Assembly (NCBI RefSeq): GCF_902168175.1
Contig: NZ_CABHOU010000016.1
Span: forward strand, 1 to 64,000
Source: an uncultured Chitinophaga sp.
GTDB taxonomy: Bacteria; Bacteroidota; Bacteroidia; Chitinophagales; Chitinophagaceae
DNA: 64,000 nt
Direction of reading: 5' to 3'
Of this stretch, positions 41,153 through 62,820 are shown in pieces. A program made the position numbers and the translations under genes. The notes below the pieces were generated by a model, which did no database searches, was not told the origin of the DNA, and was given only the letters and a program-made list of their open reading frames with translations. Position 1 is the first letter of the stretch. Each line of letters opens with the position of its first letter.

Positions 41153-42049
41153 CTAGCGGTGTTGGTCGTACAAATTAATGCGAACGGCCTGGCGTAAAAA
41201 ATCCATTTCGGAATCTTTTAACGGCGGGGTATTGGTGGTACCTGCAGCCTCTTCCAACTGCTCCAGGGTGCGGATGCCTACTACGGCCGAGGTAATGGCC
41301 GGTTGCTGCAACACGAAACGCACGGCGGTTTGCGATGGCAGGCGTTCGCTGCCCGATAAGCCAGCCACATGTTTGGCAGCCATGGCCACGTCCAGTATAT
41401 TGTAGTTCAGGAACTCTTCAGGGGTTTTGCCCGTTAACAAACCTTTGGCCACGGTGCCGCGCGCCAGTACACCTACATTATACTCCTGTAATAAGGGCAG
41501 GCAAATTTCTTCGGGGCGGCGATCGAGCAGGCTATACTGCATCATCACACTCGTCAAATGAGAACGTTGCAACCAGGCGTGTATCACGTTAGGGCGTATA
41601 GAGGAAATGCCATAATAACGGATCTTTCCCTGCAACTTCAATAATTCAAACGCCGCTACGGCTTCGTCGATAGGGTCGTCAATAGTACCGCCGTGTAACT
41701 GGTAGAGGTCGATATAATCCGTTCCCAGGCGTCTAAGACTATCTTCCACCGCAGCCAGAATGTATTCCTTGGTAGGATTCCAGTCCCAGCCGCTTCCATC
41801 GGGTCGCCACTGATTACCCACTTTGGTAGCGATCACCACATCTTTCCTCTTATCTTTTAATGCTTTGCCCAGGGTTTCTTCGTTACGGCCGTGGTCGTAT
41901 AAATCCGCCGTATCAAAATAATTAATGCCAAGGTCGGCGGCGCGAGCCACCAGCGCGGCATTCTCCGCATCGCTGCCCTTCAGCGACATACATCCGAAAC
42001 CAATTTCGCTAATCCTGAGGTCTGACTTTCCGAGTAGATTATACTTCAT
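41153..42049 (-). CDS. Aldo/keto reductase
   Basis: The start at ATG 42049 (298 residues) fits the family (MKYNLLGKSDLRISEIGFG); a longer frame adds 13 residues. The AKR tetrad is visible: Asp and Tyr in FDTADLYDHG, Lys in VIATKVGN, His in YQLHGGTID. It reduces an aldehyde or ketone with NAD(P)H. Separate unit with a 457-bp gap upstream. Substrate unknown. Confidence 0.9.
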   Translation of the reverse strand: MKYNLLGKSDLRISEIGFGCMSLKGSDAENAALVARAADLGINYFDTADLYDHGRNEETLGKALKDKRKDVVIATKVGNQWRPDGSGWDWNPTKEYILAAVEDSLRRLGTDYIDLYQLHGGTIDDPIDEAVAAFELLKLQGKIRYYGISSIRPNVIHAWLQRSHLTSVMMQYSLLDRRPEEICLPLLQEYNVGVLARGTVAKGLLTGKTPEEFLNYNILDVAMAAKHVAGLSGSERLPSQTAVRFVLQQPAITSAVVGIRTLEQLEEAAGTTNTPPLKDSEMDFLRQAVRINLYDQHR

Positions 42050-42217
42050 ACTGGCGATTTGAGGTTTACATATCAAATTTAACACCATTTATCTGGTTTT
42101 GTTAACATAAAGCCGTCTAATTCAGGGTTTAAAGTATTAATTGCTCAAATGCCCGTACCTGGGCAGCTACGGCCTTCAATATTATATTCACCATCTTCAG
42201 GTTCTCTTCTCCTAGCT

Positions 42218-42248
42218 TTCAGGTATACTTCAGGTATACTTCAGCTAC
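42218..42248. repeat. 11-bp tandem repeat, two full and one partial copy
   Basis: TTCAGGTATAC is repeated head to tail at 42218-42228 and 42229-42239, followed by a degenerate TTCAGCTAC copy. The preceding bases make the first unit CTTTCAGG, a core shared with the second repeat set at 42288-42327. Confidence 0.8.
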
Positions 42249-42287
42249 TCTTGACGCTTTTTGTTAAGATACTATCAGTGATAAATA

Positions 42288-42327
42288 TTTTCTGCTTTCA
42301 GGACAACTTTTTCTGCTTTCAGGACAA
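42288..42327. repeat. 21-bp-period tandem repeat, two copies
   Basis: A 19-bp unit TTTTCTGCTTTCAGGACAA occurs at 42288-42306 and 42309-42327, exactly 21 bp apart (two helical turns). The regular phasing would suit binding of a regulator to one DNA face. Confidence 0.85.
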
Positions 42328-42465
42328 TTTTCCGGGGTTAGCGGAGGCTATCTTTGTGTAACATTCAATAAACGAGGCTGGGTTGGTGTAAATGCGGAGG
42401 GGCACCGCATGCGCGTTCAGAAGGGCTTTTGTTTTACAGGTGATTTACGGTTTGGAGGTGCCGTA

Positions 42466-42495
42466 AAGAAAAAGGCTGCCTCGTTCGAAGCAGCC
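42466..42495 (-). terminator. Rho-independent terminator of the susCD-EEP operon
   Basis: GGCTGC/GCAGCC stem (42474-42479 with 42490-42495), extendable by TCG/CGA, followed on the minus strand by TTTTTCTTTA. It lies 12 bp past the stop of the last EEP gene. Confidence 0.75.
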
Positions 42496-42506
42496 CCGTT
42501 ATCTCT

Positions 42507-43313
42507 TTAATAACTTAACACCGCCTTATAACCGAGGTGGTCCGATCCATAAAATCCTTCCATCAATACCTGCTCGCTCACTGTTTTAAAGCTGCTGGTT
42601 TTAGGGAAGAAGATATAATCGATCCTTCGTTTTGGGTTTACATTCGGAATCGTAGGCGCTTTATTAATGCTGGCGTCGGTAAAGAAAGCTGTGAGTGGTT
42701 GTATGGCACCCTTTTCATCAGTAGCGTTGAAGTCGCCGCCAATTACCAGGGGCAGGGACAAACTTTCGCCCAACTTCACGATAGCGGCCGTTTGCAATAC
42801 ACGGTTCTCTTCTTTACTAACATCGAGGTGGGTGCTGGCGAACCAGATATCTTTTTTACCGGGCAGACTTACACGTCCCAGGGCCACTACGCGATCCTCG
42901 CCTGTAAAGCCTTCTATTTTAGGCAACATGATCGTACGGGTTTCAGTAAGCGGGTATTTTGATAAGATACCTACGCCATAACCACCGCCCTCGTACGGGA
43001 TAGCTTTTCCGTAGTAATAGTACATGCCCAGTTTATCGGCCAGCAGTTTTAACTGGAACTCCTTATTAGCACGTACCGTTACGCTATCGAGTTCCTGCAG
43101 GGCTACCAGCTGGGCACCAGACTTACGGATCGTAGCAGCAATGGTGTCCAGGTCAATTACTTCCTTTGGCTGCGATGGCGGGTTAGCGTGATGCACATTA
43201 TATGTAACCACAGTTACCTCGCGACTGGCAGGCCCGGAACTTGTTTTCCGGGCACTGTTACAACCAGCCAACATCATCAGCATGAGTGAATAAAAAAAGA
43301 ATGTTCTTATCAT
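42507..43313 (-). CDS. EEP-superfamily phosphodiesterase/phosphatase lipoprotein (copy 1)
   Basis: A 268-residue lipoprotein (MLAGC, Cys18) with the endonuclease/exonuclease/phosphatase fold. Metal and catalytic residues are visible: Asn/His in YNVHHANPP, Glu in LQELDS, His in STHLDVS, Asp/Asn in GGDFNATD, and the C-terminal SDHLG. The superfamily includes DNases, sphingomyelinases and inositol-phosphate phosphatases. Last gene of the operon, 14 bp after the Ig-like lipoprotein. Paralogous to 44942-45820. Confidence 0.88.
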   Translation of the reverse strand: MIRTFFFYSLMLMMLAGCNSARKTSSGPASREVTVVTYNVHHANPPSQPKEVIDLDTIAATIRKSGAQLVALQELDSVTVRANKEFQLKLLADKLGMYYYYGKAIPYEGGGYGVGILSKYPLTETRTIMLPKIEGFTGEDRVVALGRVSLPGKKDIWFASTHLDVSKEENRVLQTAAIVKLGESLSLPLVIGGDFNATDEKGAIQPLTAFFTDASINKAPTIPNVNPKRRIDYIFFPKTSSFKTVSEQVLMEGFYGSDHLGYKAVLSY

Positions 43314-43327
43314 TGGTACATAGATTA

Positions 43328-44929
43328 TCAGGGGTAGGCTAAAGTAGATACCGGATTATATTTCGTGCGATTGTCTTCCGCAGGTGCTTTCACTTCAAGG
43401 GTTACGGTGGCCTGGCCATTGACAACCGCATACTCTTTAACCATCACTACCGCAAAAGCCTGGTTATTGGTCGGCGTCCATGAACCCCAACCGATAATGA
43501 AACCTTCGCCCGCTTTCAGTGCGCTGTTAAAGCGACGATTGGTGGTAGATACGTTATAGTTTTCTCCACCGGCAGCTACCGGTGCCTTCACTTTGTTATT
43601 GATGTAATCCGTAAGCTCACCATCCCACAACATACCATCAAAAAAGGCATTAGTAAGACTTGGACGGTTTACAGTAACCAGTGTATACGTGGCGGTATTG
43701 AAACCAACCATGTAAGGCGCCATGCCAGTGGAATACGCTGCTCCTGCATTAAATGCAGCAGCCGAAGATATACGGAAGTCCGTAGCACCGTGTTTGTACA
43801 TCAGGAAGTCCATAGCCAGCTGGTTAGCAGCGGCACCTGGCACATCAAATGTATAAGGTGCCTTGTTCATAGAGAACCAGTTATGTTTACCGGCTCCTAT
43901 TTCAGTAGTCAGTTTAATGTCTCTAACATGTACCAGTTTATTATACACCTGCGCTACCACATACTCTGCCTGCAGACTTTTACCACCTTCGTTCGCACCG
44001 CTGATGCGTACGGCCTGTACGCCATTTGTGCCCTGGTATTGTACACTGAACGCAAATTCATCCTTCGGCGTTCCGATAGTAATCGCTGTTTCCGCACCAT
44101 ACGTACCATTCACTTTCAGCGCGTAGGTAAGGGTGGACACTGCGGAACCAGAGAACACTGTACCCGCCAGTGTATTGTCAATACCCGCATACACTACCGG
44201 AATGTTTGTTTTATTGCCATCCAGCGCGATATTCACCGCATCGTCTACCACCGTACCAATCTTGAAGGTATCGAGTGCAGTACCATTGAAGCTGTTTTTT
44301 GCTTTTACGATAATACCGCTCATGTTTTTCACCACGGTAACGGTCAACGCAAAAGGCATGTTCTTTGCGTTAGTGATAGTGATCGGACTTTCGGACGATG
44401 CTGTGCCGTTTACAATAGTCTGGTAAGTAAGGGCCGTTACATCATGCTCTGATGTAAAACTACCTTCCACTTTAAATTGTTTGTTCTCAAAAACAGAGGC
44501 ACGGAACTTCACATTATCCTTAAAAGAAAGTACCGGCATAAGTCGTACGCCTTTTGGTTTGATATGCTTTTCGCTGTTCTTCATTTGTTTATCGAACGAA
44601 ATGACAACCAGTTCCACCATGTTCTGTGGCACCGTAAACACAATGTTCTGATCGAGTTCCTGTGGATGATTTTCTTTATAGTCAATCGTTACAGGCGTTC
44701 CTGAAGAGAGTCCCGATGCTGTTTGGGTGATGAAGTAGTAAGCCAGGCGGCGTATACCGGCGGGTGCTTTCACGTTCACGGGCACTGTTACCTGCTCACC
44801 CACGTTCAGGTTTTCCACTTCTTCAAATCCCGCCCCGAGTGTAATTACCGGCCCGGCAACCTTGTCGTCGTTTTTGTTACAGGCCAGCAGGCTTAAGCAA
44901 CATACGACTAGCAGTATATATTTTTTCAT
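43328..44929 (-). CDS. Surface lipoprotein with Ig-like repeats (SusE-position protein)
   Basis: A 533-residue lipoprotein (SLLAC, Cys17; KNDDK after it may help surface export). Three successive beta-sandwich-like segments (about 30-125, 130-220, 225-325) share the pattern of a strand, V.S..LTY....NGT, a PITI strand and a V.. strand. The C-terminal 200 residues form another domain with many Asn and aromatic residues. I recognise no enzyme motif. Position after SusC, SusD and an EEP gene suggests a substrate-binding surface protein. Family unknown to me. Confidence 0.72.
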   Translation of the reverse strand: MKKYILLVVCCLSLLACNKNDDKVAGPVITLGAGFEEVENLNVGEQVTVPVNVKAPAGIRRLAYYFITQTASGLSSGTPVTIDYKENHPQELDQNIVFTVPQNMVELVVISFDKQMKNSEKHIKPKGVRLMPVLSFKDNVKFRASVFENKQFKVEGSFTSEHDVTALTYQTIVNGTASSESPITITNAKNMPFALTVTVVKNMSGIIVKAKNSFNGTALDTFKIGTVVDDAVNIALDGNKTNIPVVYAGIDNTLAGTVFSGSAVSTLTYALKVNGTYGAETAITIGTPKDEFAFSVQYQGTNGVQAVRISGANEGGKSLQAEYVVAQVYNKLVHVRDIKLTTEIGAGKHNWFSMNKAPYTFDVPGAAANQLAMDFLMYKHGATDFRISSAAAFNAGAAYSTGMAPYMVGFNTATYTLVTVNRPSLTNAFFDGMLWDGELTDYINNKVKAPVAAGGENYNVSTTNRRFNSALKAGEGFIIGWGSWTPTNNQAFAVVMVKEYAVVNGQATVTLEVKAPAEDNRTKYNPVSTLAYP

Positions 44930-44941
44930 GATCGTTGTTGT

Positions 44942-45820
44942 TTATCGGTTAAACTTTAATTCCGCTATCACCGGCAGATGATCCGAGGCAACACGTTCCT
45001 GGATAACGTTGTGTGATAGAATACCGAATGCGTTCGAAGGACGGAACCCCAGGTGATCAATGATCACGGTTGGGTTCTGCGCGCTGGAAGTATTCGGACA
45101 GTTCACACCAACGCAGGTGCGGGTAAAGGCGCCGTCAAACACGTTAAAAAAATCGGTAGCTGAAGGGTTCTCATTTAAATCGCCGCCGATCAGTATGCGA
45201 TCGGAAGTTTTAGAAAGATGAGAGATCACTTCGTTGATCTGCGCCAGGCGTCCACCGCCAGCTGTATGCTGCAGGTGTGTTACCGCAAGCGTCAGTGAAT
45301 CAACACCAGGAAGATCAACGGTAGCAATACCCAGTACGCGCTGCTCGTCCGTAGCATTTGCTTTGGGCAGCATGTACTTCCTGTTATTTTTCAGCGGATA
45401 CTTACTGAGGATGGCGATCCCATAAAACCCACGCATGTAAGCAATAGAAGAATAAAACGAATAGTTCATTTTCACCAGCGCCGCAATCTCTTTTGCCATA
45501 TCACCTGTATAACCATTCCTGTTAGTTCCTTTATCCACTTCCTGCAGAAACAACACATCCGGATTGGCCTGTATGATCACATTGGCAATGGCGTTTATAT
45601 CCACCGTACCTGGCGCGCCCGGCGGGTTTGCTGCGTGAATGTTGTAGGTCATGTATTTGATGGTAGCCATTTTGGGCTCGGCATCGTTATTATTTCCGTA
45701 GGTGGCATCGCTGCTGCCCAACTCCACATAAGCAGGTGGTGTATTAGGCAGATAAGGATCTTTATTGCAGGCCAGCAGCAATAACGCCGCCACCATTATA
45801 CTTTTAGCATTGTTCATCAT
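44942..45820 (-). CDS. EEP-superfamily phosphodiesterase/phosphatase lipoprotein (copy 2)
   Basis: A 292-residue lipoprotein (LLLAC, Cys18) with the same fold as 42507-43313. Key residues: YNIHAANPP, Glu in FLQEVDK, His in VTHLQH, GGDLNENP, and SDHLPVIAEL. It starts within the SusD stop (4-bp overlap), so it is coupled to SusD. The shared YN.H.ANPP.. motif shows that the two copies arose by duplication or are a matched pair acting on the same substrate. Confidence 0.88.
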   Translation of the reverse strand: MMNNAKSIMVAALLLLACNKDPYLPNTPPAYVELGSSDATYGNNNDAEPKMATIKYMTYNIHAANPPGAPGTVDINAIANVIIQANPDVLFLQEVDKGTNRNGYTGDMAKEIAALVKMNYSFYSSIAYMRGFYGIAILSKYPLKNNRKYMLPKANATDEQRVLGIATVDLPGVDSLTLAVTHLQHTAGGGRLAQINEVISHLSKTSDRILIGGDLNENPSATDFFNVFDGAFTRTCVGVNCPNTSSAQNPTVIIDHLGFRPSNAFGILSHNVIQERVASDHLPVIAELKFNR

Positions 45821-47583
45821 TTCCAGAAAGGATTTTGTTCCAGTTTAGGATTAAGGGTGATGTCTTGTGTAGGCAGGGGCCAGAGGTAGTCTTTGGTTTC
45901 ATCAAAAACCTTTACCACACCTTTGTTCGTGAGTACATTACCGCTGTTACCATTCGTCAAATCGGTAACAGGTAACTGGTAAGGACCAGTAGCCGGTGGT
46001 TTCGTACCTGCATATATTTCTACATCATTGGTACCGTTGCGGTCCAGGTCATAGAAACCTGCGCCGGGGAAGTACATTCCCCTGTATGCAGTAGTTAACA
46101 ACTGACCTTCTTTCCAACGCATCAAATCGTCCCAACGGAAGTTGCTTTCCATTACGAGTTCTACCCTGCGCTCTCTTCTTATTTCGAGGATAAGGCCTTT
46201 ATTGGCACCTGCCACATTAGGGTACAAAGCTGCCTGGTAAGGATCGGGGTTTGCGTTTGCCGCTACCACATCGAGATTAGGCATGCCTGCACGGTCGCGC
46301 AGCAGTTTAATCGAAAGGTCAATATCTGCCTGTGAAATGGTATTTAATTCTGCTTTAGCCTCTGCATAGTTCAGCAATGTTTCTCCGAAACGGAAAATGA
46401 TCATATCATTGATAGACTGGCTGTTTCCATCGTAAGTAGCGATGTTCATCCATTTGATAGGCTGATAGCCGGTCATGGAAGACTCAAAGTCGGGCGCCAA
46501 CACCTGTGTACCGCCAATACGCATGTAACCGGGTGTGCGGATGGTTTGTGCCAGGCGCGGGTCACGGTTCTGCACCTCATCGTAAAACTGCATGGTTTCG
46601 TAGCCTGGGATGTCTGTAAAACGGGTACCGTCTTTCATCAGGTAACTGTTAACCAAACGTTTCTCCAGGCCGGGTTTACCCTGCGAACGGGCAGTTGTGT
46701 AGAACTGCAGGTTGTGTTTCAGGTTCAGCTCATTTGAATAACGACGGCCCAGTATCACTTCATCCGCCACTCCATCAATTTTAAGCGTAGCAAATAAATC
46801 CTGGTAAGCCTTTTTAGAAGGACCATCGATTTTAGTGTACACTTTGTATATACCGCCCTGCATCAGTTGCTCCGAAGCCGATACACATTCGTTCAGCCAC
46901 TTATCGGCATCGGGCAATGACATTTCTGTATGATATTTACGCCAGGTACCTTCGTACAGGCAAATACGCGATTTAAGCGCCAGCGCTGTCCATTTGGTTA
47001 CACGCTCTACACTTTTAGTGGCATCGAGTTTTTCTACTGCAAAGTTAATATCGGCCAGTACGGAGTCCATTACCAGCGTTCTTGGATCGCGGGCTTTGTA
47101 CAGGTTAGCCTGGTCGTTGGTTTCAATCACTACATTATAGAACGGTACATCACCAAAATACTGCACCTTGGTGAAGTAGAAGTAAGCACGGAAGAAACGG
47201 GCCAGAGCCACGTATTTATCACGCACCGCCACATCGCGATAGTTCTTTACGTTTTCGCTGTTCAGCAAAAAGTTGATACTGCGCAGTTGTGAAAAGCTCC
47301 ATTTCCCGTCTGTAAGCGGAATAAGCCTTGTACCCGCCACTTCCCTGTCTACAGAGGATTTAGCGATATTATCGGCTCCTTCGCTGTACAGGTAATCTGC
47401 CGCAGGGAAGTAGGTATAAAACTGGTTCGTATAAGTTTTAAAATCTGCTTCATTGGCAAAGAAGGTGGGTGGCGATACAGATGATGTAGGATATCGCTCC
47501 AGGAAGTCTTTACCACAGGATGATGTAAGTACAGCCGCAGCCGCCAGCATCCCTATTATTCTAATTTTTTTCATACTCATCAT
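45817..47583 (-). CDS. SusD/RagB-family outer-membrane lipoprotein
   Basis: A 588-residue protein with a lipoprotein signal (SSC, Cys23) and a canonical SusD start (GKDFLERYPTSSVSP). TPR-like helices follow (FFRAYFYFTKVQYFGDVPFY), with the C-terminal EIRRERRVELVMESNFRWDDLMRW block typical of RagB/SusD. It caps the SusC partner (gap 11 bp) and binds the nutrient. Substrate unknown; its operon lacks glycosidases. Confidence 0.93.
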   Translation of the reverse strand: MMSMKKIRIIGMLAAAAVLTSSCGKDFLERYPTSSVSPPTFFANEADFKTYTNQFYTYFPAADYLYSEGADNIAKSSVDREVAGTRLIPLTDGKWSFSQLRSINFLLNSENVKNYRDVAVRDKYVALARFFRAYFYFTKVQYFGDVPFYNVVIETNDQANLYKARDPRTLVMDSVLADINFAVEKLDATKSVERVTKWTALALKSRICLYEGTWRKYHTEMSLPDADKWLNECVSASEQLMQGGIYKVYTKIDGPSKKAYQDLFATLKIDGVADEVILGRRYSNELNLKHNLQFYTTARSQGKPGLEKRLVNSYLMKDGTRFTDIPGYETMQFYDEVQNRDPRLAQTIRTPGYMRIGGTQVLAPDFESSMTGYQPIKWMNIATYDGNSQSINDMIIFRFGETLLNYAEAKAELNTISQADIDLSIKLLRDRAGMPNLDVVAANANPDPYQAALYPNVAGANKGLILEIRRERRVELVMESNFRWDDLMRWKEGQLLTTAYRGMYFPGAGFYDLDRNGTNDVEIYAGTKPPATGPYQLPVTDLTNGNSGNVLTNKGVVKVFDETKDYLWPLPTQDITLNPKLEQNPFWK

Positions 47584-47594
47584 GGCTACAGGTT

Positions 47595-50500
47595 TTAGAA
47601 GGTAACATCAAAGCCAAAGGCATAAGTTTTGGAAAATGGATACACACGTCCGTCGATGTTCGACATAGCCTGCTCCGGATCGATGTATTTGGAGCGGAGT
47701 TTAGTCCAGGTCCACATATTTTCGCCGCTGACAAACACCCTGAAGCGTTCGATTTTTGCGCGCCTTGTGAGATGGGCGGGCAGGCTGTAACCGAGCGTCA
47801 TGTTCTTGAGGCGCAGGTAAGCCAGATCTTGCATGTAACGGTTATTAGTAGCACGCAATTCGTTGTTGGCATTCAGCGCCACGTATGCAAGCAGGTTCGG
47901 GAAGTAAGCGTTTTGGTTCGTTGGTGAATAAACGTCTTTCTCAAAGTCTGCAGGAATAAAGGAGAAGTACGGCCTTGAATAAGGCCCCCAGAAACGGTCG
48001 GCATTATTACCGGGGTACCAGTCCATTTTACCTAAACCCTGGAAGAGTGTAGTGAAGTCGAAACCATTCCAGTCGGCACCCACGTTAAAGGAATACTGGA
48101 AACGGGGCGTAGAGTTACCTACCACTCGCTGGTCGCCTGGGTTGGCGAGGGAGCTGCCGTTACCATTGGTGATTTTACCATCGCCGTCCAGATCTACCCA
48201 GCGAAGATCGCCAGCGCGGAGCGGGATGTTATTGTCTACACGCATTTTGTTCAACCATGTCTGGTCAACAGGATAGGTTTTTGCTTCCGCATCCGTTTTG
48301 AAGAAACCATCCGTTACATATCCCCATATCTCGCCTACATTTTTACCAACATACAGGCCGGTAATAATGGCCGCAGAATTAGAATTGTTTACCACTTTAG
48401 TGATGCGGGAACGGTTATCGCCCAGCACACCGCCAATATTGTAGTTAAAGTTTTTGCCCGCCAGTTTAAACCTGTCACGCCATTCGGCAGTAAGTTCAAA
48501 ACCCTCTGTACGTAAGGAAGCGGCGTTTACCAGGGGCTCTGCAGCACCAAATACATCGGGTAGGGCAATACCATTAGTAAGTACGTCACTGGTATTACGG
48601 ATATAACGATCGAAGCTAAAGTTCAGGCGGTTACGCAGGAACGCAACATCGATACCGGCGTTGTAGGAGGTAACTTTTTCCCATGTAAGACTGCCCGATA
48701 CCGGAGCCGGAGCACCGTAGTACTTCGACAGTTCGCCATCTAATATATAAGAAGCCGTACCGGGATTCATCGTAGAAATGTATGGGTATTGCCCACCAAT
48801 AGCCTGGTTACCCAGCGAACCATACGAACCGCGTAATTTCAGATCGCTGACAATTCCTTTAAGTGGTAAAAAGAACTTCTCTTCGCTCGCACGCCATCCT
48901 GCAGAAAAAGAGGGAAAGAAACCCCAGCGGCCGCCTTTAGGAAAACGGGAGGTACCATCGTAACGGCCATTCGCTTCAAACAGGTATTTACTTTTGTAAT
49001 CGTAGGTGAGGCGGTAAAAAAGACCCATCAACGCATATTCGCTGCTACCACCACCAACAGTTTGTTCACCGGTACCCAGGGCAAGGTCATTCAGATCTTC
49101 GGAAGAAATATTCATACGTGCCGCTGTAATTCTCTTTGGACGGCTTAACTCCTGGTTATACCCCACTACAAGTTTGAAATTATGGGCGTTGTTAAACGAC
49201 TTCAGGTAATCGGCATACACGTTAGCCACATGCACCTGGTTAAACTGCTGCGTTTCCGTCAACTTATCTGTACTATACTTCGGCGTCATCGTTACTACAC
49301 CTGGATATAGTGAGTAATAAGCTGGAGCAGCACGGTAAAAGTTAGGGTCGGTGTACATATTGTAGCTGTAGTTAGCCGTAATATTCAGGTTCTTGAGTGG
49401 CGTGATCACCACTTCATTAATCGAAGTCAGTTCAAACTTACGATCCACGCCCTTACTGTTACCATTTAACATCATGGCAAAAATACCGTCACCAATATCG
49501 TAGGCGTTTAAACCAGTAATGTAACTGGCGGTACCGTCGGGATTATACGGCGCGTAAGCAGGTGAGGCATGCACGTTGATGTGCGTGAAGTTAGCCGTAC
49601 CACCGCCTTCGCGGCCGTGATAGGAATAATTGGAATGATAGAAGTTAGTGTTCGAAGACACTTTCAACCACGGGTACAATTGAGCGCCTATTTTGGCACG
49701 CAGTGTTTTGGAACTGTATTTATCAGTGTTGATGCGGGTAATACCATCCTTGGTTTTCAGGTTACCGTTAATCATGAAGTTCACTTTATCGTTACCGCCG
49801 CTTAACGAAATGTTATGCGTTTGCATAGGCTGCCATTTGGTGAACATAATGTCCCACCAGTCGTAGTTGCCATAATACACATACTGGTCCTGCCCGTTAC
49901 GGTTCTGGATAGTTACCCATGGACGCGAAGGGTCTTCCGTTTTATCGTTACGACGCGCCAGCAGTTCTGCATAATCGCGTTCTGTATACCCGGAGTAACC
50001 GCCAATGTAATACAGTGCGCGGTCGTTCAGGCTCATCCAGTCGTAACCCTTAGTCATAAAATCGGTACTAACCGTAGGCGTCGAAAACGAGAAAGAATTG
50101 TTATAACGCACCACTGTTTTACCCGCAGTACCACTTTTAGTGGTGATCAAAACCACACCAAAAGAGCCACGGGCACCATATATCGCAGCAGAAGCCGCAT
50201 CTTTTAAAACGGAAATAGACTGCACCTCTTCCGGGTTAAGCCGGTCGAGCGTACCCGGAATACCATCGATCAGTACCAATGGACCACCAGATACAGCGCC
50301 GCCATTACTACCATCGATAGAAGTAACACCACGGATGTTAAGGGAGCCCATTTGGCCAGGCGTGCCACTCGCCACACGGATAGTTAGATTGGGCATAACG
50401 CCCTGCAACAGCGAGGAGATATTGGTGGCAGGGCGATCGCGCAGCTCATCACCGGAAATCTGGTTTACCGCACCCGTAAGATTTACTTTCTTCTGGGTAC

Positions 50501-50885
50501 CATAACCCACTACCACTACTTCCGACAGTTTACTTTCGTCGATAGTGAGACTCACCATTACGGAATTAGGCACACCGCTTTTCACCACATACCCCGTAAC
50601 CGAACGTTTCTGGTAACCGTAGGAGGAGAAGTCGAAAGCATAAGTACCTACTGTGGGCACGTTAGCGAACCGGAACCTTCCGAGTGAATCGGAAATGGCC
50701 GGGAATGATTTTTTAGTGAGCGTGTTGCGGGCCAGCACCGACACGAAAGGCAGGGGAACGCCCTGCTCGTCGGTAACCACGCCTTCAACGGTGGCTGTTT
50801 GCTCCTGGGCAAACACGCCAGTATTTAGCATAAGGAACAGGGAAAGGAAGAAAAGCCTCCCCCAACGCGGTAGCATTGTAAGCAT
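47595..50885 (-). CDS. SusC/RagA-family TonB-dependent transporter
   Basis: The ATG at 50885 is preferred over a GTG at 50912; this gives 1096 residues with a signal peptide ending at VFAQ. A CarboxypepD_reg-like domain (about 27-110), the VVVVGYGTQKK motif before the plug, LVLIDGIPG, and a barrel ending FGFDVTF follow. Unlike the SusC at 8010-11291 it has no STN domain, so contact with the upstream FecR protein is not obvious. First gene of the five-gene operon, 75 bp after fecR. Confidence 0.93.
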   Translation of the reverse strand: MLTMLPRWGRLFFLSLFLMLNTGVFAQEQTATVEGVVTDEQGVPLPFVSVLARNTLTKKSFPAISDSLGRFRFANVPTVGTYAFDFSSYGYQKRSVTGYVVKSGVPNSVMVSLTIDESKLSEVVVVGYGTQKKVNLTGAVNQISGDELRDRPATNISSLLQGVMPNLTIRVASGTPGQMGSLNIRGVTSIDGSNGGAVSGGPLVLIDGIPGTLDRLNPEEVQSISVLKDAASAAIYGARGSFGVVLITTKSGTAGKTVVRYNNSFSFSTPTVSTDFMTKGYDWMSLNDRALYYIGGYSGYTERDYAELLARRNDKTEDPSRPWVTIQNRNGQDQYVYYGNYDWWDIMFTKWQPMQTHNISLSGGNDKVNFMINGNLKTKDGITRINTDKYSSKTLRAKIGAQLYPWLKVSSNTNFYHSNYSYHGREGGGTANFTHINVHASPAYAPYNPDGTASYITGLNAYDIGDGIFAMMLNGNSKGVDRKFELTSINEVVITPLKNLNITANYSYNMYTDPNFYRAAPAYYSLYPGVVTMTPKYSTDKLTETQQFNQVHVANVYADYLKSFNNAHNFKLVVGYNQELSRPKRITAARMNISSEDLNDLALGTGEQTVGGGSSEYALMGLFYRLTYDYKSKYLFEANGRYDGTSRFPKGGRWGFFPSFSAGWRASEEKFFLPLKGIVSDLKLRGSYGSLGNQAIGGQYPYISTMNPGTASYILDGELSKYYGAPAPVSGSLTWEKVTSYNAGIDVAFLRNRLNFSFDRYIRNTSDVLTNGIALPDVFGAAEPLVNAASLRTEGFELTAEWRDRFKLAGKNFNYNIGGVLGDNRSRITKVVNNSNSAAIITGLYVGKNVGEIWGYVTDGFFKTDAEAKTYPVDQTWLNKMRVDNNIPLRAGDLRWVDLDGDGKITNGNGSSLANPGDQRVVGNSTPRFQYSFNVGADWNGFDFTTLFQGLGKMDWYPGNNADRFWGPYSRPYFSFIPADFEKDVYSPTNQNAYFPNLLAYVALNANNELRATNNRYMQDLAYLRLKNMTLGYSLPAHLTRRAKIERFRVFVSGENMWTWTKLRSKYIDPEQAMSNIDGRVYPFSKTYAFGFDVTF

Positions 50886-50960
50886 ATCAGCAGATTGAAT
50901 TTTAAGAAACACAATCTGAATACGTTTTACAAACTCAGTTGCCCCTAATGCGGACTAAAA

Positions 50961-51995
50961 TTATTTTGAAATGATGTACAAAGAATCGCCGGAAGCCTTG
51001 ACTTTCATACCGATAGTGCGACAAATATTTTGCAGCATCAGGTGTACTGGCTGGCCGGCATCAACCGATACGAGCATATTAGTGGCGAGCGCCACGTCAG
51101 TTGGATACCGTATTTCCACATTATACTGCACCGCAAGGTAGTCGAACATATCGCTGAGGGCCTGGTTCTGGAAATTGAGGTATGTTTTATGGTTAACGGG
51201 ATCGGTCACCTTTCTTGGCAAAGCAATTTTCTTCTTTATCATACGCGAAGCTACTACCTGCTTTACCAGTGGCACACCATTGATATCTACCGCTACAAAG
51301 CGTTTTTCATCAATGCGATAGGCCAGTGCTTCGCCCGGTAACGGGTATGCAGGTTGTACCGTATTAGCCGTATCTCTCACCCGTACCTTTCCTTCGTACA
51401 GGTGTACAAAAGCATTTTCGCCCCAGCCATCTACCCTAAACCTGGTACCGAGGGCCGTGGTGGCTATATTGCGGCAATACACCGTAAGCGGTTTGCGATC
51501 GTCTTTAAATACCTGGAATTCCGCGCTACCCTCGAGGTAGATGTCGCGGGAGGTATCGTTATAATTATCGGCGTAGTAAATTTTACTGTTGGCAAATAAT
51601 AATACCTGCGTACCATCCGGCAGGTTTATCCGTTCGGTACCTTTAGATTCATTTAGATGATCATATGCGGCCATCTGTGCAGGGCGGGGAAGTGTATTGC
51701 GGTACAGGAAGTAGAACGCGCTTCCGCAAATACACAACAACAGTATGATACCGAATCCTTTATAGAAGTTTTGTGCGCGTTTGGTTTTGAGAACAGAGGC
51801 TTTATAAACCGGGCGGTAAGTATCGTCGGGGAGTTCGTTATTACGGCCGGCATCGTTGGAATCGAGGTATTGTTTCCATTCATCCTCGGAAAGATATTCC
51901 TCTATATCCAACGACTTATCTTTAAGACGGCTTTGCAGTGCAGCGATCTCTTTTGCTCTTTTGGAGTCATCGTTGTATAAATGCTCATCTCTCAT
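50961..51995 (-). CDS. FecR-family anti-sigma factor (DUF4974 type)
   Basis: A 344-residue protein: an acidic N-terminal sigma-binding region (1-70), one membrane helix (about 81-99, GIILLLCICGSAFYFLY), a FecR domain (about 115-215) and a C-terminal DUF4974 domain (about 275-344). It lies 11 bp after the sigma gene. Its C-terminal domain should pair with an STN domain, which the adjacent SusC lacks, so its partner may be encoded elsewhere. Confidence 0.87.
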   Translation of the reverse strand: MRDEHLYNDDSKRAKEIAALQSRLKDKSLDIEEYLSEDEWKQYLDSNDAGRNNELPDDTYRPVYKASVLKTKRAQNFYKGFGIILLLCICGSAFYFLYRNTLPRPAQMAAYDHLNESKGTERINLPDGTQVLLFANSKIYYADNYNDTSRDIYLEGSAEFQVFKDDRKPLTVYCRNIATTALGTRFRVDGWGENAFVHLYEGKVRVRDTANTVQPAYPLPGEALAYRIDEKRFVAVDINGVPLVKQVVASRMIKKKIALPRKVTDPVNHKTYLNFQNQALSDMFDYLAVQYNVEIRYPTDVALATNMLVSVDAGQPVHLMLQNICRTIGMKVKASGDSLYIISK

Positions 51996-52006
51996 TAAAA
52001 CGCCTG

Positions 52007-52558
52007 TTAAGGCATTACAAGATTAGCAAATATTATTAAAACAAAACTAAAAAATGGGCGGATGAAACGGATAGCGAGGGTTAAATGGTTTTCTACAGTT
52101 TTGGGAGAGATGGATAAAATTTCGGCTATTTCGCTGGTGCTGCGGCTATGGATGCGGCTCAACTCAAACACCTCGCGACGTTTGGGTGGCAGCAGGTCCA
52201 GCAGCTTATGGAGCCGGGCTTTCGTATCGTTATAAGTTACCTGGTTCATTACCTCTTCCGATGCGGCGGGCCCCATGGTATAGGCATGGTAATGTTTTTC
52301 GCGCACCTGTATTTTCCGTAACTCGTCAATCAAAGTAGTTTTGGCAATTCTAAAAAGCTGAATGGCAATGTCTACGTTCGGATCGAGGTGGTGACGGAAG
52401 CGCCAGAGTTTAATAAAGGTGAGCTGCACTACTTCTTTTGCATAATATTCCGATTCAATTTTCCTGTACAGGAAATTAAATAGTGGATAGCGGTATTCCA
52501 CAAAGATGCTTTCGAATGCAGCCTCACTGTTATTCCTTAGTTCAGATACCCTATGCAT
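52007..52558 (-). CDS. ECF sigma factor
   Basis: The ATG at 52558 gives 183 residues; a TTG 9 bp upstream is less likely. Sigma region 2 (about 15-80, with QLTFIKLWRFR) and region 4 (about 112-165, with STSEIAEILSISPKTVENHL) are clear. As in the first sigma factor, a hydrophobic tail (FVLIIFANLVMP) follows region 4. It should drive the downstream susCD-EEP operon. Confidence 0.9.
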   Translation of the reverse strand: MHRVSELRNNSEAAFESIFVEYRYPLFNFLYRKIESEYYAKEVVQLTFIKLWRFRHHLDPNVDIAIQLFRIAKTTLIDELRKIQVREKHYHAYTMGPAASEEVMNQVTYNDTKARLHKLLDLLPPKRREVFELSRIHSRSTSEIAEILSISPKTVENHLTLAIRFIRPFFSFVLIIFANLVMP

Positions 52559-52692
52559 TTTAAACAACAGTTTAAAAATTAAAAACCGCGATAAAAGTAA
52601 AAAAGTGACGAGTAATTAGTTCCCTTTGGTTGATATGATAACCTTAAAATAATAAATAAACCCAGATTCCAAAAATTCCCGGGATAAACAGA

Positions 52693-52724
52693 AGATGGCG
52701 TCACCCAGCCGGGCAACGCCATCT
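52693..52724 (-). terminator. Hairpin after the PTP-like phosphatase gene
   Basis: Perfect 9-bp arms AGATGGCGT (52693-52701) and ACGCCATCT (52716-52724) around a 14-nt loop. On the minus strand it is followed by TCTGTTTATCC, a poor T-tract. It lies 24 bp past the phosphatase stop and is the probable 3' end of that operon. Confidence 0.6.
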
Positions 52725-52747
52725 TTCTGAAATATAAACAAACTGCT

Positions 52748-53557
52748 TTACATTGTGTATTTAGCGCGAAGCTGCTTCAGTTCTGCATCGCCCAGGCCTA
52801 ATACCTGTTTAAAAAATGCATCTACCGAACCGTACTGTTTGCGGATAGCATTGAATGAGGCCTCCAGGTAGGCTGGCTTTACGCCCATCATGTCGTTCAC
52901 CATTTTCTCGTCCAGCCCGTACTGTTTCACCATCATTTGTGTCATCGCCTTGTTCGCTTCTTTGCGGTATACAGCGGAGGCCAGGTAGTCGTTTTCGACC
53001 GTTTTATAAGGAACACCCAGCGCAGTAAGGATCAGCGCTGCGCCTACACCGGTACGGTCTTTCCCCGCAGAGCAATGAAACACCAGGGCCGAAGTGTCCT
53101 GCATGTCCAGCAGTTTCTGGAACATAGGTTTGTACTTTACTTCGTAATGGTCAATTTTTCCGTAGAAAGAAGTCATCAGCGAATCGCCGCTTTTGGTGTA
53201 CTTGAGCATGCTCATAAAATCACCTACATCTTCGGAGGCAGCGCAAAGGGTATAGTCAGCGTAAGGCAATAAGCGATCGGGCGCTTTCTGTGCTTCTTTT
53301 GTTTCGCGCAGATCGATTACGGTGTTGATGTGGCTGGCCGCCAGCTTTTGCATATCGGTATCGGTAAGTTTGCTGATGTCGGCCGAGCGGTACATTTTAC
53401 CCCACTTCACTGTTTTACCGTTGGTGGTTTTATAACCGCCCAGGTCGCGGAAATTAACGCCGCCTTCCAGTTTAACTAAACGTTTGCTGCTGTCGGCAAC
53501 CTGCGCCGTTGCCAGTAGGGGCATAGCGGCCAGGGCCAGGAGAATGATATTCTTCAT
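52748..53557 (-). CDS. Secreted PTP-fold phosphatase with AGKDR P-loop (LipA/MptpB-like)
   Basis: A 269-residue protein with a signal peptide (cleavage near ATAQ). The N-terminal GGVNFRDLGGY block and the P-loop HCSAGKDRTG (Cys162, Arg168) match the Y_phosphatase3 family, including Listeria LipA and mycobacterial MptpB. The Lys-Asp within the loop is linked in those enzymes to phosphoinositide as well as phosphoprotein activity. Periplasmic by signal. It lies 26 bp after the TonB receptor, so it probably acts on the imported ligand. Confidence 0.88.
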   Translation of the reverse strand: MKNIILLALAAMPLLATAQVADSSKRLVKLEGGVNFRDLGGYKTTNGKTVKWGKMYRSADISKLTDTDMQKLAASHINTVIDLRETKEAQKAPDRLLPYADYTLCAASEDVGDFMSMLKYTKSGDSLMTSFYGKIDHYEVKYKPMFQKLLDMQDTSALVFHCSAGKDRTGVGAALILTALGVPYKTVENDYLASAVYRKEANKAMTQMMVKQYGLDEKMVNDMMGVKPAYLEASFNAIRKQYGSVDAFFKQVLGLGDAELKQLRAKYTM

Positions 53558-53583
53558 GGTAATTGTTTTTTATAAGATGATGA

Positions 53584-56451
53584 TTATTTGATGATGTCCC
53601 AACGGAGGCCTGCCTGTCCGCGCAACCCATAACTTTCCAGCATGGTGATACGGCGCTTGTCGCCCATATAAGTGCGCAGCGGCTCATTGGTGAGGTTATT
53701 AAGCTCTACGAATACTTTAATACGTTTGGTAATGCTGGCAGTAGCCGAGGCATCGAGCGTAAAGTTCTTGTCGGTCCAGATGTAGAAATCGGGGCCTAAC
53801 TGCTGGTTAATAGTTTCGAGCGATTTGCCCCTGTAGTTACCAGCCAGGCGTACCATTACACCATTACGTTCGTAAAAGAGGATAGCGTTGAAAAGGTTTT
53901 TAGACTGGTTCGGCAAACTTGCTTTTTCTGTCACCGTTGCACCGTTCAGTAATCTCGGCACTTTCACTTCGGAGTGGATATAAGTGTAGTTAAACTCCAC
54001 ACCAAAACCGCTAAATAAGCCAGGCAGGAAGCTCAAACGCTTGCTGATACCCGCTTCGGCACCCACCAGTGAAGCGTCCTGCAGGTTCTTGGGCTGCGAC
54101 ATCAGGTAGCTGGTACCTTCTATCGTTTCCATCGAACGATCGGTGAAGATCACATCTTTAATCTGCTTATAAAATACACCACCAGATATTAAACCGATGT
54201 TAGAGAAATAATACTCTCCCATTACATCGAAGTTATTGGAAAAGGTAGGCTTCAGCGACGGGTTACCTTTGGTGATCGTTGCAGGTGTTTTAGTAAGATC
54301 GGCCGTTTCGCCCGGACTCAGATCAGGAAAATTAGGGCGAACGAAAGTACGCGTGTATGCTGCGCGCAGGTTAGCCTGCTCGTTCAGCGCATACTTAAGG
54401 TGTACCATCGGCAACAACGCGTTGTAATTGTTATTAACGGTTTGTGGTGTTACTTTAACACCCGAAGCATCGGTAGTTACTTTCGTACTGTTCAGTTCCA
54501 GGTGGGTGTATTCATTACGAACACCGGCTACCATTTTAAGTTTAGGTGTAACGTTATACTCGGCCATTACATAACCAGCCGTTACCGACTCATATCCTTC
54601 ATAATAAGAACTGGCGTTGGAGGCAGGCGACACATCGCGCATTCCATTAGCACGCAAAGCGGCTGTATCGTACAACCTGAACAATTGATCTTTGGTTAGC
54701 GGGTTCATTACGTACTGGCTGTAATCACCATCCAGGTTACCAAAGAAAGAACCTTTATTCGGAAAACTTTCTGTTTGCAGTTGCGAGAGAGTAAGTAATG
54801 CGGGAGAATTAGGTACGCCCAGCGCAGCATTCGGAATAAACACCTTGTTTGCGCCAAACGACCCTTCTCTATCTTTATGACGGTACTTCGCCCCCACTTT
54901 AACCGATAACTTTTCGTTCACTGTAAATTTAAAGTTTGCCTGCGCTACTTTATCATGTTCCTTCGTATCCAATTTCGAAATAACCAGCTGCTGTAAAGTC
55001 AGTTTCGCCGGGTCCATTTTCTCGTTGGGATCGGTGAGGTTGGCGTTAAAACGCATCGGGTCATCGCCTGTACCATCGGGCGAATCGAAGTACCAGTATT
55101 TCATACCATCGGATGCCAAACCATTAATACCGCCCGTAATGCGCTGGCGGAAGGTTGCAATCGGTAATCCCTTAAAACCATTTGTGGGCGGAGTTTCCAG
55201 GAAGAACTTCGACTCATGATCTGACACACTCCAATCGGCCTGCAGGCGTTTGCCCAGCTGATGCTCTCCACCTAACTCAAAGCTGTTGAGGGTAGTCTGG
55301 TAATGAGAGTAACGATAGTTATACTGATAACGCTTATTCGTAAAATCTACATACGATTCGTATACCGGGCGGATGTCATTGAACTTGTCCAGCAGTCCGC
55401 GGAAGAATAATTTATGGCTGGCATTGAATTTATATTCGAGTCCCAGGTTAGAGCCGTAGGTCTGGCGTTTACCCATATAACGTTTGAACATTACGGAGTT
55501 GATCGACTTTTGCTGGGTAGTGTTGGTAGAACCCGTATTGTACGAAACGTCGTAAGAGTCGGTACCCCATTGCCTGTCCCAGATGGCACCTGCGAGCATT
55601 ACACCGAGTTTGCCCTTAAAAAAGCGGTCGCCGTAAACAAGCGAGCCGTTATACGTACCATCTTTAGAAAAGCTGTTATAACCACCGGCAGCGCTCACGT
55701 TCAATTGCCTTTTCGCAGGTGCGGTGCGGGTGATGAAGTTGATAGATCCGCCAATGGCATCGCCTTCAATATCCGGCGTAATAGCTTTAGACACTTGTAC
55801 ATACTGGATCATTTCCGAGGGCACCGCGTCCAGTACCGACGCTCGGCTACCGGTTACGGAAGCGCTGGGCATACGCGTGCCGTTAAATAAGGTGGATGTC
55901 CAGGCGAACGGCGTACCACGTACGGTAGCAGCATCGGCCTCACCATGATAGCGGGCTACTGCCACACCCTGCATACGTTGTACAGCCTCGGCAGCGTTAC
56001 GGTCCGGCAGTTTACCAATGGCATCGGCGGCCATTACTTCCATGATGCCGAGGGCATTTTTCTTAATACTGAGGGCTTTGATTTGCGAAGGGGCCATGGT
56101 GCCATTTACCACCACTTCGCCCAACTGACCGCTGGCGGGTTGAAGTTCCAGCGCGCCGAGGTTGTTTAAACCGGCCTTAACGTCCAGCTCCATTTCCTTT
56201 ACCTTAAAACCCGTGTAAGTTATTTTAAGGGTGACTTTCCCCGTTTGTTGTGCATCGAGCGTAAACTGTCCATAGAGATCGGTGGCTACGCCTTTTTTCG
56301 TGTTGGCAATACTTACGGTGGCACCCGGCAACGATCCGCCTTCGCCCGTAATGGTGCCTTTAATTACCTGTGCGCCGGCCAGTGTTGGCAACAGTAGTAA
56401 ACCTGCTACCGGCATTTTTTGCATCAACCTGAAAAGTAAACAATTACTCAT
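53584..56451 (-). CDS. TonB-dependent receptor (TIGR01782-like class)
   Basis: The start at ATG 56451 (955 residues) gives a plausible signal region (to GAQ); the frame extends to 56553 with a basic leader that looks untranslated. A CarboxypepD_reg-like domain (about 28-105) precedes a plug with AIGKLPDRNAAEAVQRMQGV, a hallmark of the TonB-Xanth-Caul class rather than SusC. The barrel ends in LRGQAGLRWDIIK. No SusD partner is present. It is cotranscribed with the phosphatase. Confidence 0.88.
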   Translation of the reverse strand: MSNCLLFRLMQKMPVAGLLLLPTLAGAQVIKGTITGEGGSLPGATVSIANTKKGVATDLYGQFTLDAQQTGKVTLKITYTGFKVKEMELDVKAGLNNLGALELQPASGQLGEVVVNGTMAPSQIKALSIKKNALGIMEVMAADAIGKLPDRNAAEAVQRMQGVAVARYHGEADAATVRGTPFAWTSTLFNGTRMPSASVTGSRASVLDAVPSEMIQYVQVSKAITPDIEGDAIGGSINFITRTAPAKRQLNVSAAGGYNSFSKDGTYNGSLVYGDRFFKGKLGVMLAGAIWDRQWGTDSYDVSYNTGSTNTTQQKSINSVMFKRYMGKRQTYGSNLGLEYKFNASHKLFFRGLLDKFNDIRPVYESYVDFTNKRYQYNYRYSHYQTTLNSFELGGEHQLGKRLQADWSVSDHESKFFLETPPTNGFKGLPIATFRQRITGGINGLASDGMKYWYFDSPDGTGDDPMRFNANLTDPNEKMDPAKLTLQQLVISKLDTKEHDKVAQANFKFTVNEKLSVKVGAKYRHKDREGSFGANKVFIPNAALGVPNSPALLTLSQLQTESFPNKGSFFGNLDGDYSQYVMNPLTKDQLFRLYDTAALRANGMRDVSPASNASSYYEGYESVTAGYVMAEYNVTPKLKMVAGVRNEYTHLELNSTKVTTDASGVKVTPQTVNNNYNALLPMVHLKYALNEQANLRAAYTRTFVRPNFPDLSPGETADLTKTPATITKGNPSLKPTFSNNFDVMGEYYFSNIGLISGGVFYKQIKDVIFTDRSMETIEGTSYLMSQPKNLQDASLVGAEAGISKRLSFLPGLFSGFGVEFNYTYIHSEVKVPRLLNGATVTEKASLPNQSKNLFNAILFYERNGVMVRLAGNYRGKSLETINQQLGPDFYIWTDKNFTLDASATASITKRIKVFVELNNLTNEPLRTYMGDKRRITMLESYGLRGQAGLRWDIIK

Positions 56452-56601
56452 ACCAGTGTTTTTTTCTGCAAAGTTGCCGCGCTTACCGATGCCGGTCGAC
56501 CGGGTGTACACTCCCGCACTTCTCGCCCCTTTTCCCGATCTATTCGCACTCACATATTTTGATTTTCAAGCAGTTAGACTGTATTAAGGAAACGTTACCA
56601 A

Positions 56602-57780: not shown

Positions 57781-57835
57781 AACAATACAAATGTATCCTT
57801 GTAATATTACTATAATGTTAAGCCACAAATCACAA

Positions 57836-57864
57836 ACGCCCCGGCGGGCAAACCACCGGGGCGT
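57836..57864 (-). terminator. Hairpin terminator of the GH20 gene
   Basis: Perfect 9-bp arms ACGCCCCGG (57836-57844) and CCGGGGCGT (57856-57864) with an 11-nt loop. On the minus strand TTTGTGATTTGTGG follows, T-rich but broken. It lies 22 bp past the GH20 stop. Confidence 0.65.
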
Positions 57865-57886
57865 TGTAATTACATTTTTTGACCTG

Positions 57887-60139: not shown

Positions 60140-60162
60140 GACGTTTCCTCTGAAAGTATACG

Positions 60163-60194
60163 CGAATATAGTGCTTCCGGGATGTTTATGCAAT
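60163..60194 (-). promoter_or_regulatory. Bacteroidota-type promoter of the GH20 gene
   Basis: On the minus strand ATTG (complement of 60191-60194), 20 bp, then TATATTCG (60170-60163), 7 of 8 to TAnnTTTG. The spacing is right and the leader would be about 17 nt. Confidence 0.5.
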
Positions 60195-60208
60195 GTGGCG
60201 GACGGCGA

Positions 60209-60239
60209 CAAAAAAAGGGCCGCGCAAAAGCACAGCCCT
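60209..60239 (-). terminator. Rho-independent terminator of the GH127 gene
   Basis: On the minus strand AGGGC...GCCCT arms (60239-60235 and 60220-60216), with imperfect inner pairing, run into seven to eight T. It lies about 31 bp past the GH127 stop. Confidence 0.65.
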
Positions 60240-60270
60240 CGTCATGTAATTAATAGGTACTAAAACTATC

Positions 60271-62658: not shown

Positions 62659-62694
62659 ATTCAAATTTTTTTTGCGTTTTCTGGTAGTGGTCGA

Positions 62695-62726: not shown

Positions 62727-62820
62727 CCGTATTTTAACCACTTAGCAACGGAATTTATTCTATTCCGGACAATTGGCAAAAAATAGAGGGGGAATGGTAA
62801 AGTGTTTTACATACACCTGA

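Follow-up and report, generated by a model that had tools for sequence, protein, structure and literature searches.

SusC/SusD pairs (SusCD) are usually read as sugar importers. A different use is documented in Flavobacterium, where, as set out in passages of Lidbury et al. (PMC8115612), the Pus loci place SusCD beside phosphodi- and monoesterases rather than carbohydrate-active enzymes (CAZymes) and are induced by phosphate depletion. The enzymes of the F. johnsoniae loci PUSI and PUSII are given there as calcineurin-type (pf00149), pf16670 and PhoA, and PusD is reported to be polyphyletic. Here we describe a SusCD operon from an uncultured Chitinophaga sp. (assembly GCF_902168175.1), located in the first 64,000 nucleotides of contig NZ_CABHOU010000016.1, a stretch referred to below as the window. 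The operon combines SusC and SusD with two lipoproteins of the endonuclease/exonuclease/phosphatase (EEP) fold and a 533-aa lipoprotein encoded between them. From its genes, we consider it probable that the operon serves the Sus-type uptake of a polymer or oligomer that contains phosphodiesters. This reading draws on a conserved gene order, intact catalytic sets, two separate EEP groups, differing lipoprotein N-termini and a phosphoesterase-enriched SusD clade.

The features of the locus, all on the minus strand, are as follows:

52692..52725, minus: hairpin upstream of sigma, setting the unit apart from the preceding TonB receptor / tyrosine-phosphatase-like operon
52007..52567, minus: extracytoplasmic function (ECF) sigma factor (sigma-70), probable ATG at 52558; TIGR02937, 75 bits, above cut-off
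50961..51995, minus: FecR-type anti-sigma regulator; PF04773, 49.5 bits, and PF16344, 27.1 bits
47595..50885, minus: SusC/RagA TonB-linked outer-membrane transporter; TIGR04056, 798 bits
45817..47583, minus: SusD substrate-binding lipoprotein with C-G-K-D N-terminus; PF07980, 154.5 bits
44942..45820, minus: EEP1, EEP-fold lipoprotein with C-N-K-D-P N-terminus; PF03372, 64.2 bits
43328..44929, minus: lipoprotein of 533 aa without family match, surface-type N-terminus; 16-row alignment
42507..43313, minus: EEP2, the other EEP-fold lipoprotein, no acidic residues in its N-terminus; PF03372, 80.1 bits
42472..42497, minus: intrinsic-terminator-like hairpin directly after EEP2, ending the operon; 11 pairs, T-rich tail

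The five genes from SusC to EEP2 are tightly spaced, with 11 bp between SusC and SusD, a 4-bp overlap of SusD and EEP1, and gaps of 12 bp before and 14 bp after the lipoprotein gene. FecR and the ECF sigma factor lie upstream of SusC on the same strand, and the sigma factor also scores 121.4 bits against TIGR02985, slightly below the cut-off of 126.4. A preliminary description made from this DNA had reported the five-gene unit, a terminator closing it, its own sigma/FecR pair and the lack of a glycosidase, all of which were recovered here; family profile searches detected no glycosidase among the seven genes (sigma, FecR and the five-gene unit). The terminator scan overall returned 15 sites against 12.3 in shuffles, so that only its position and stem length speak for the hairpin at 42497-42472. 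No RNA family reached threshold within 42000-57900. For SusC we kept the earlier choice of ATG 50885 as the start, although the reading frame could begin upstream at GTG 50912; the resulting FecR-SusC gap resembles the 78-85 bp seen in five relatives, other relatives having 26-48 bp.

The two EEP enzymes match PF03372 above its curated cut-off of 24.5 bits and are 33% identical to each other. The catalytic set comprises N60, E94, H182, D214, N216, D255, D280 and H281 in EEP1 and N39, E74, H162, D194, N196, D232, D258 and H259 in EEP2, residues whose roles we take to be those of DNase I-like enzymes. Across 15 EEP1 and 13 EEP2 sequences, leaving out the frameshifted copies of Chitinophaga sedimenti, 29 positions are invariant, and the whole catalytic set (Asn, Glu, His, Asp-x-Asn, Asp, Asp-His) is among them. 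Furthermore, a quick tree of 74 rows places the EEP1 orthologues in one group and the EEP2 orthologues in another, with values of 100 and 93 in the Shimodaira-Hasegawa-like approximate likelihood-ratio test (SH-aLRT). The phosphoester substrate proposed in the preliminary description thus gains predictive support from the invariant catalytic residues, as it does from the phosphoesterase neighbours found beside related SusDs.

The predicted structure of EEP1 (pLDDT 71.8, pTM 0.74) has the EEP fold. Its best match in the PDB is 4ruw (Z 25.6, 231 residues, 3.1 Å), a structural-genomics entry without a named activity. The model matches many EEP enzymes at Z 18.6-25.6, including TDP2, nocturnin and the mannosyl-6-phosphatase Bt3783 (4c1r, Z 22.5, 18% identity over the fold alignment). 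Human neutral sphingomyelinase (Z 21.8) and bacterial sphingomyelinases (Z 18.6-19.2) score below several other EEPs, while DNase I and the inositol-polyphosphate 5-phosphatases are not among the best 50 PDB matches listed for the model, which does not exclude them. Structure comparison, which the preliminary description had put forward as a check, therefore confirmed the EEP fold of EEP1 and failed to discriminate between DNase I, sphingomyelinase and phosphatase types: as far as the model goes, the EEP fold does not name the substrate, and nucleic acid, sphingomyelin and inositol phosphate, the substrates suggested earlier, are not singled out. An idea of GPI or inositol lipids via PF23226 (the PGAP2IP/CWH43 nuclease-like domain, with a role in GPI lipids) was also dropped, as the two EEPs reach 23.8 and 20.6 bits against a cut-off of 27.

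The presence of TDP2 and nocturnin among the nearest folds of EEP1 is in line with general scavenging of organic phosphorus, in which lipid head groups or nucleic acid would be cleaved and phosphate would be the prize, as has been proposed for the Pus loci, which in the published passages join SusCD to phosphodi- and monoesterases, unlike CAZyme-bearing polysaccharide utilisation loci (PULs) (PMC8115612). The sigma/FecR pair, however, speaks more for a specific inducer than for phosphate starvation, and the retention of the 533-aa lipoprotein in 16 of 16 genomes suggests a specific ligand. On balance, we regard general scavenging as somewhat unlikely.

To assess the conservation of the gene set, SusD was searched in overlapping samples of 79 genus, 344 family and 395 phylum genomes, and loci in 15 other genomes with SusD at least 65% identical were taken as orthologous. 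EEP1 and the lipoprotein gene follow in order in all 15, and EEP2 follows in 13 of them. With this conservation, the arrangement is not due to chance. The nearest named genome found is that of C. sedimenti (apparently G430; L066, also L194), one of the 13, in which several genes are broken by frameshifts; in G439, SusC is partial. The two genomes without EEP2, G691 and G481, cluster together in the EEP1 and SusD trees. More specifically, G691 (L196) has a GH89 gene followed by MurQ in place of EEP2, while in G481 (L197:10285-17077) a complete 16S-tRNA-tRNA-23S-5S operon begins about 1.1 kb after the lipoprotein gene, and neither EEP2 nor GH89 occurs in the 19 kb of the locus examined. The search for the gene set in other Bacteroidota, a check put forward in the preliminary description, thus recovered it in 13 of the 15 genomes and not outside the family in this sample, the best SusD from beyond the family being 55% identical. 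Including the window, the five-gene unit has a pair of EEP genes and lacks a glycosidase over cut-off in 14 of 16 genomes (the EEPs being frameshifted in one). The genes 3' of EEP2 vary among the orthologous loci, with an M49 peptidase gene, for example, in L071.

By sequence, no relative of the 533-aa lipoprotein was found in Pfam, NCBIfam or the PDB, and the 'Ig-like' label it had been given finds no family match. A 16-sequence profile of the lipoprotein returned nothing from the PDB up to E 5 and picked out only orthologues among the open reading frames (ORFs) of the loci used; three Pfam families each match one member weakly (best E 0.017). The C-terminal part contains invariant Trp, Arg, Asn and Gly residues in the 16-row alignment. 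A model built from two sequences is strand-rich and of low confidence (pLDDT 42.4). We consider the protein a candidate surface substrate-binding protein, and with it a candidate for a new surface-binding family.

The N-termini of the four lipoproteins differ in a way that bears on their placement. SusD, a surface protein by family, carries C-x-K-D in 15 of 16 rows when read by eye and in 13 of the 14 scored by script. In the 533-aa lipoprotein, K is followed by acidic residues in all 14 rows with a correctly placed lipobox, the script having misplaced it in L193 and L198. EEP1 begins with C-N-K-D-P in 14 of 16 rows, the other two reading C-N-K-K and C-N-K-S. In EEP2, no acidic residue is found at +2 to +6 in any of the 12 rows with the cysteine; for L070 and L199, where an earlier cysteine had been picked by the script, the likely one is also without an acidic residue, and the L067 copy has no lipobox. 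For comparison, the minimal surface lipoprotein export signal of Capnocytophaga is K-(D/E)2 or Q-A-(D/E)2 right after the cysteine, and other genera use other acidic motifs, according to passages of PMC5080379. The lack of acidic residues in EEP2 makes a periplasmic location probable. Taken together, these short motifs suggest an arrangement like that of Sus systems, with EEP1 on the outside and EEP2 within, so that the earlier proposal of two surface EEPs would hold for EEP1, with its SusD-like N-terminus, and not for EEP2.

In the mechanism that we infer, SusD and the 533-aa lipoprotein would hold the substrate at the cell surface, where EEP1, anchored on the outside, would cut it at a phosphoester bond. 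SusC, with SusD as its lid, would then bring the pieces in using TonB energy, and EEP2, anchored in the periplasm, would complete the cleavage. The unit would probably be turned on by the sigma/FecR pair, which adjoins the operon in the window and in most orthologous loci.

Beyond the orthologous loci, the window's SusD belongs to a clade of 69 sampled rows (54 loci and 15 orthologue rows), separated with SH-aLRT 100 from 20 controls that are 22-26% identical, in a quick tree that carried a warning on long control branches. Fifty of the loci, with SusD about 37-59% identical to that of the window, were hand-picked across identity bands from the hits of the SusD searches before their contents were seen, and four further loci entered via an EEP search. 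The controls were rows 2, 4 ... 40 of the PF07980 list ordered by E-value in 24 genomes holding clade SusDs. Up to three same-strand genes after SusD, with gaps up to 350 bp, were counted as neighbours, and assignments were made per locus by hmmscan of representatives together with sequence clusters. By this rule, 30 of the 50 clade loci count a phosphoesterase or phosphodiester glycosidase among these neighbours (34/54 with the EEP-search loci), and 44 of the 54 have any same-strand downstream gene. Phosphoesterases were found in 5/20 controls, for which all ORFs within 5 kb downstream were scanned with home-made profiles; built from clade members, these profiles favour the clade and work against the control count. 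Fisher tests against 5/20 gave p = 0.016 for 30/50, p = 0.0045 for 34/54 and p = 0.0002 for 34/44. The wide rule used for the controls, when applied to the clade, gave 36/54 (35 by profile and L217 by Pfam), with p = 0.0017.

The excess of phosphoesterases in the clade is real but moderate; what stands out most is how many unrelated kinds of phosphoesterase occur beside a single SusD clade. The partner enzymes include EEP, calcineurin-type, purple-acid-type, type-I phosphodiesterase, GDPD, PhoD, PHP, propeller-phosphoesterase and NAGPA proteins, and the companion genes encode GH89, NamZ-EEP fusions, a GlpT/PgtP-like transporter and an N-acylglucosamine epimerase. In the Pfam tallies of downstream proteins, 25 families were listed of 61 for the controls and of 88 for the clade. 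Among the matches listed, the 89 clade proteins include 13 EEP, 13 calcineurin-type, 4 type-I phosphodiesterase, 3 GDPD, 3 NAGPA, 3 phosphoesterase and 2 NamZ members; the 44 control proteins, likewise among the matches listed, include 3 EEP and 2 calcineurin-type members together with GH30, GH76, GH127-like and GH35 glycosidases. The window's genome itself holds a further clade locus, L240, with calcineurin-type and type-I phosphodiesterase genes. This phosphoesterase-linked SusD branch would offer a sequence-based way to seek phosphoester-specific SusCD loci among the unassigned pairs of Bacteroidota.

Two further groups within the clade are recorded as side observations. Eight loci with SusD identities of about 54-59% (L202, L203, L206-L209, L211 and L212) are SusCD pairs standing alone, without a same-strand gene within 350 bp; a convergent gene of about 1080 aa is common to L202 and L203. 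Four others (L224, L229, L230 and L246) carry a xylose-isomerase-like barrel or an SGNH esterase, with NAGPA also in L229, L230 and L246, and this set may represent another substrate class.

Several observations weigh against a phosphodiester-uptake locus operating as outlined above. In 20 of the 54 clade loci none of the next three genes encodes such an enzyme, 10 of them lacking any same-strand gene within 350 bp, and the controls are not free of them either, the 5/20 consisting of EEPs in L251, L261 and L267, calcineurin-type enzymes in L258 and L267, and GDPD in L270. L251 and L267 overlap the EEP-search loci L089 and L082, having entered the controls through the PF07980 list. Without the NAGPA-only loci L223 and L245, the comparison falls to 28/50 vs 5/20 (p = 0.033), and since the loci are related by descent, all p-values overstate independence and serve as a guide only. 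Moreover, L251, L261 and L267 form a second, unrelated SusD group (SH-aLRT 99), so that EEPs beside SusCD are not confined to the window's clade. With regard to placement, EEP1 has one acidic residue where the Capnocytophaga signal has two, and its surface case therefore rests on likeness to the SusD of the same operon. With regard to regulation, the STN domain of SusC usually signals to FecR, and no STN domain (PF07660) was detected in this SusC by the Pfam search; the sigma factors of the orthologous loci also fall into two groups, 57-81% or 25-33% identical to that of the window. A SusC without STN and a sigma factor that differs between orthologue groups leave control by sigma/FecR unproven, and by sequence the regulator seems exchangeable between loci. 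Finally, four orthologous loci carry sugar-type genes after EEP2. In G439 (L192) one is CBM9-like and another weakly glycosidase-like, below cut-off, and the same clusters recur in G392 (L195); G036 (L068) has a GFO/IDH/MocA oxidoreductase and G071 (L069) has ThuA. In L251, the EEP stands after a BT_3987-like/F5-8-type protein.

The occurrence of EEPs in 3 of 20 control SusCD operons is compatible with an ordinary carbohydrate PUL, the EEPs playing an accessory part and glycosidases coming from elsewhere in the genome. Such enzymes are at hand, with a GH89 gene of the host on another contig (C103) and GH3, GH20 and GH127 genes elsewhere in the window. Set against this, the combination of two EEP genes with no glycosidase over cut-off recurs in nearly all of the 16 genomes, and the phosphoesterase excess over controls is clade-wide. 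We judge an ordinary PUL to be quite unlikely.

The sugar-type genes after EEP2 (in G392 assigned by cluster) are also what might be expected if the substrate were a phosphorylated glycan, for instance yeast phosphomannan or a sugar-phosphate diester of another kind, on which the EEPs would act like Bt3783. In keeping with this, Bt3783 is among the folds listed for EEP1, L083 and L088 have GH89 alongside EEPs, and L073 encodes an N-acylglucosamine 2-epimerase. The operon, however, has no mannosidase or other glycosidase, and the fold match does not single out Bt3783. We consider a phosphorylated glycan an unlikely substrate.

The enzymes found with EEPs and clade SusDs in relatives also include several that act on cell-wall sugars and phosphodiesters. 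In G691, the genes replacing EEP2 are well supported (GH89: NAGLU, 465.9 bits; MurQ: TIGR00274, 314.8 bits, over the 302 cut-off). In G392, G439, G409 and G390, coordinates of separate searches combine into one arrangement on one strand, in which the clade SusD precedes a single ORF of 527-568 aa that encodes two EEP domains, and a MurQ-like gene comes next, about 2.9 kb downstream of SusD. A NamZ (exo-beta-N-acetylmuramidase)-EEP fusion directly follows the clade SusD in L101:9606-11723 and, unlike the window's EEPs, exceeds the PF23226 cut-off (55.6 bits); L232:7306-9237 is probably another such fusion, given the two NamZ members in the clade tally and its C-terminal EEP. NAGPA occurs in L223, L245 and L246, PhoD with GDPD in L228, and GDPD with a GlpT/PgtP-like transporter in L225. 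Outside the 54 loci, the SusCD operon L088 (SusD 29% identical) encodes an EEP-GH89 fusion protein (L088:6415-9273), a second EEP, a second GH89, a glycerate kinase and a GntP-type permease.

Wall teichoic acid is joined to peptidoglycan at C6 of MurNAc. The partners in relatives together hint at phosphodiesters bearing GlcNAc or MurNAc, as in peptidoglycan-linked wall teichoic acid, and GlpQ and PhoD feature in the literature on wall teichoic acid. In some relatives, the partner genes are at least as suggestive of cell-wall phosphate polymers or phosphorylated glycans as of the substrates first proposed, and the list of candidates should be widened to include both. If the substrate were a cell-wall phosphate polymer, above all wall teichoic acid, the boldest candidate, the EEPs would cut polyol-phosphate or linkage-unit diesters, and relatives would add removal of alpha-GlcNAc, cleavage of GlcNAc-1-phosphodiesters and salvage of MurNAc. 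This would accommodate GH89 and MurQ in G691, the two-EEP ORFs with MurQ-like genes, the NamZ-EEP fusions, NAGPA, and GDPD with PhoD or a transporter. None of PhoD, GDPD, NAGPA, GH89 and MurQ is present in the window's own operon, so that the cell-wall hint is indirect for the window, and such partners are equally missing from the 13 orthologous operons with EEP2.

MurQ as a marker of the clade was weakened on closer inspection. The search gave 64 MurQ rows in 36 genomes, 5 of them within 6 kb of a listed clade SusD against about 0.5 expected by a hand estimate. The MurQ-like genes of G392, G439, G409 and G390, however, lie below the equivalog cut-off and represent one orthologous arrangement, which reduces the MurQ links to about two independent ones, four of the five being one arrangement; MurQ-like genes also occur near SusDs outside the listed clade hits (G408 C1:1148182, G393 C1:2501780). 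We regard a cell-wall polymer as a possible substrate, though not a probable one. Rather doubtful is the broader proposal that this SusC/SusD branch is specialised in wall phosphodiester polymers of other bacteria (teichoic acids, the MurNAc-6-phosphate linkage), with the window's operon as a two-EEP teichoic-acid utilisation locus. We found no description of a teichoic-acid utilisation locus with SusCD in the literature (open-licence papers). If true, a wall-teichoic-acid substrate would show by what means these bacteria feed on a major phosphorus reserve of their Gram-positive neighbours.

Upstream of the unit, the preceding operon (52748-57828, minus strand) encodes a secreted tyrosine-phosphatase-like protein (PF13350, 228.9 bits; similarity to PTP-like phytases below cut-off), a Caulobacter/Xanthomonas-type TonB receptor and an AraC-type regulator, and is possibly another organic-phosphate uptake unit. 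It was rejected as part of the locus described here: in C. sedimenti it was not found in the 3.2 kb preceding sigma, and in the window a hairpin lies between the two. Still on the minus strand, 57887-63954 holds genes for a GH20 beta-hexosaminidase, for a GH127 protein whose C-terminal domain is of the F5/8 type, and for a third protein that bears a CHU_C type IX secretion tail.

Compared with known systems, the phosphodiester-uptake locus we favour would work in the manner of a Pus or a Sus locus. The Pus loci are its precedent: in both, a SusCD pair of Bacteroidota is co-located with putative phosphodi- or monoesterases. The window's locus differs in having two EEPs, an unmatched lipoprotein and sigma/FecR. 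Calling such a locus seldom described, as the preliminary description did, was fair, apart from this Flavobacterium precedent (PMC8115612). With PULs, the operon shares adjacent SusC and SusD, a further lipoprotein, probable surface and periplasmic enzymes and sigma/FecR; it differs in lacking a glycosidase, lyase or CAZy-kind esterase, so that its seven genes do not include the CAZyme expected of a PUL. Bt3783 of Bacteroides thetaiotaomicron likewise has the EEP fold in a member of the Bacteroidota, while its identity to EEP1 is low and we take its locus to be a mannan PUL rich in glycosidases. Bacterial sphingomyelinases and DNase I-like nucleases share the EEP fold and catalytic set with the window's enzymes, sphingomyelinases not being favoured by the structure comparison of EEP1. 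What is new relative to Pus and Sus systems is the combination of two EEPs, an unmatched lipoprotein and an adjacent sigma/FecR pair within a phosphoesterase-enriched SusD clade.

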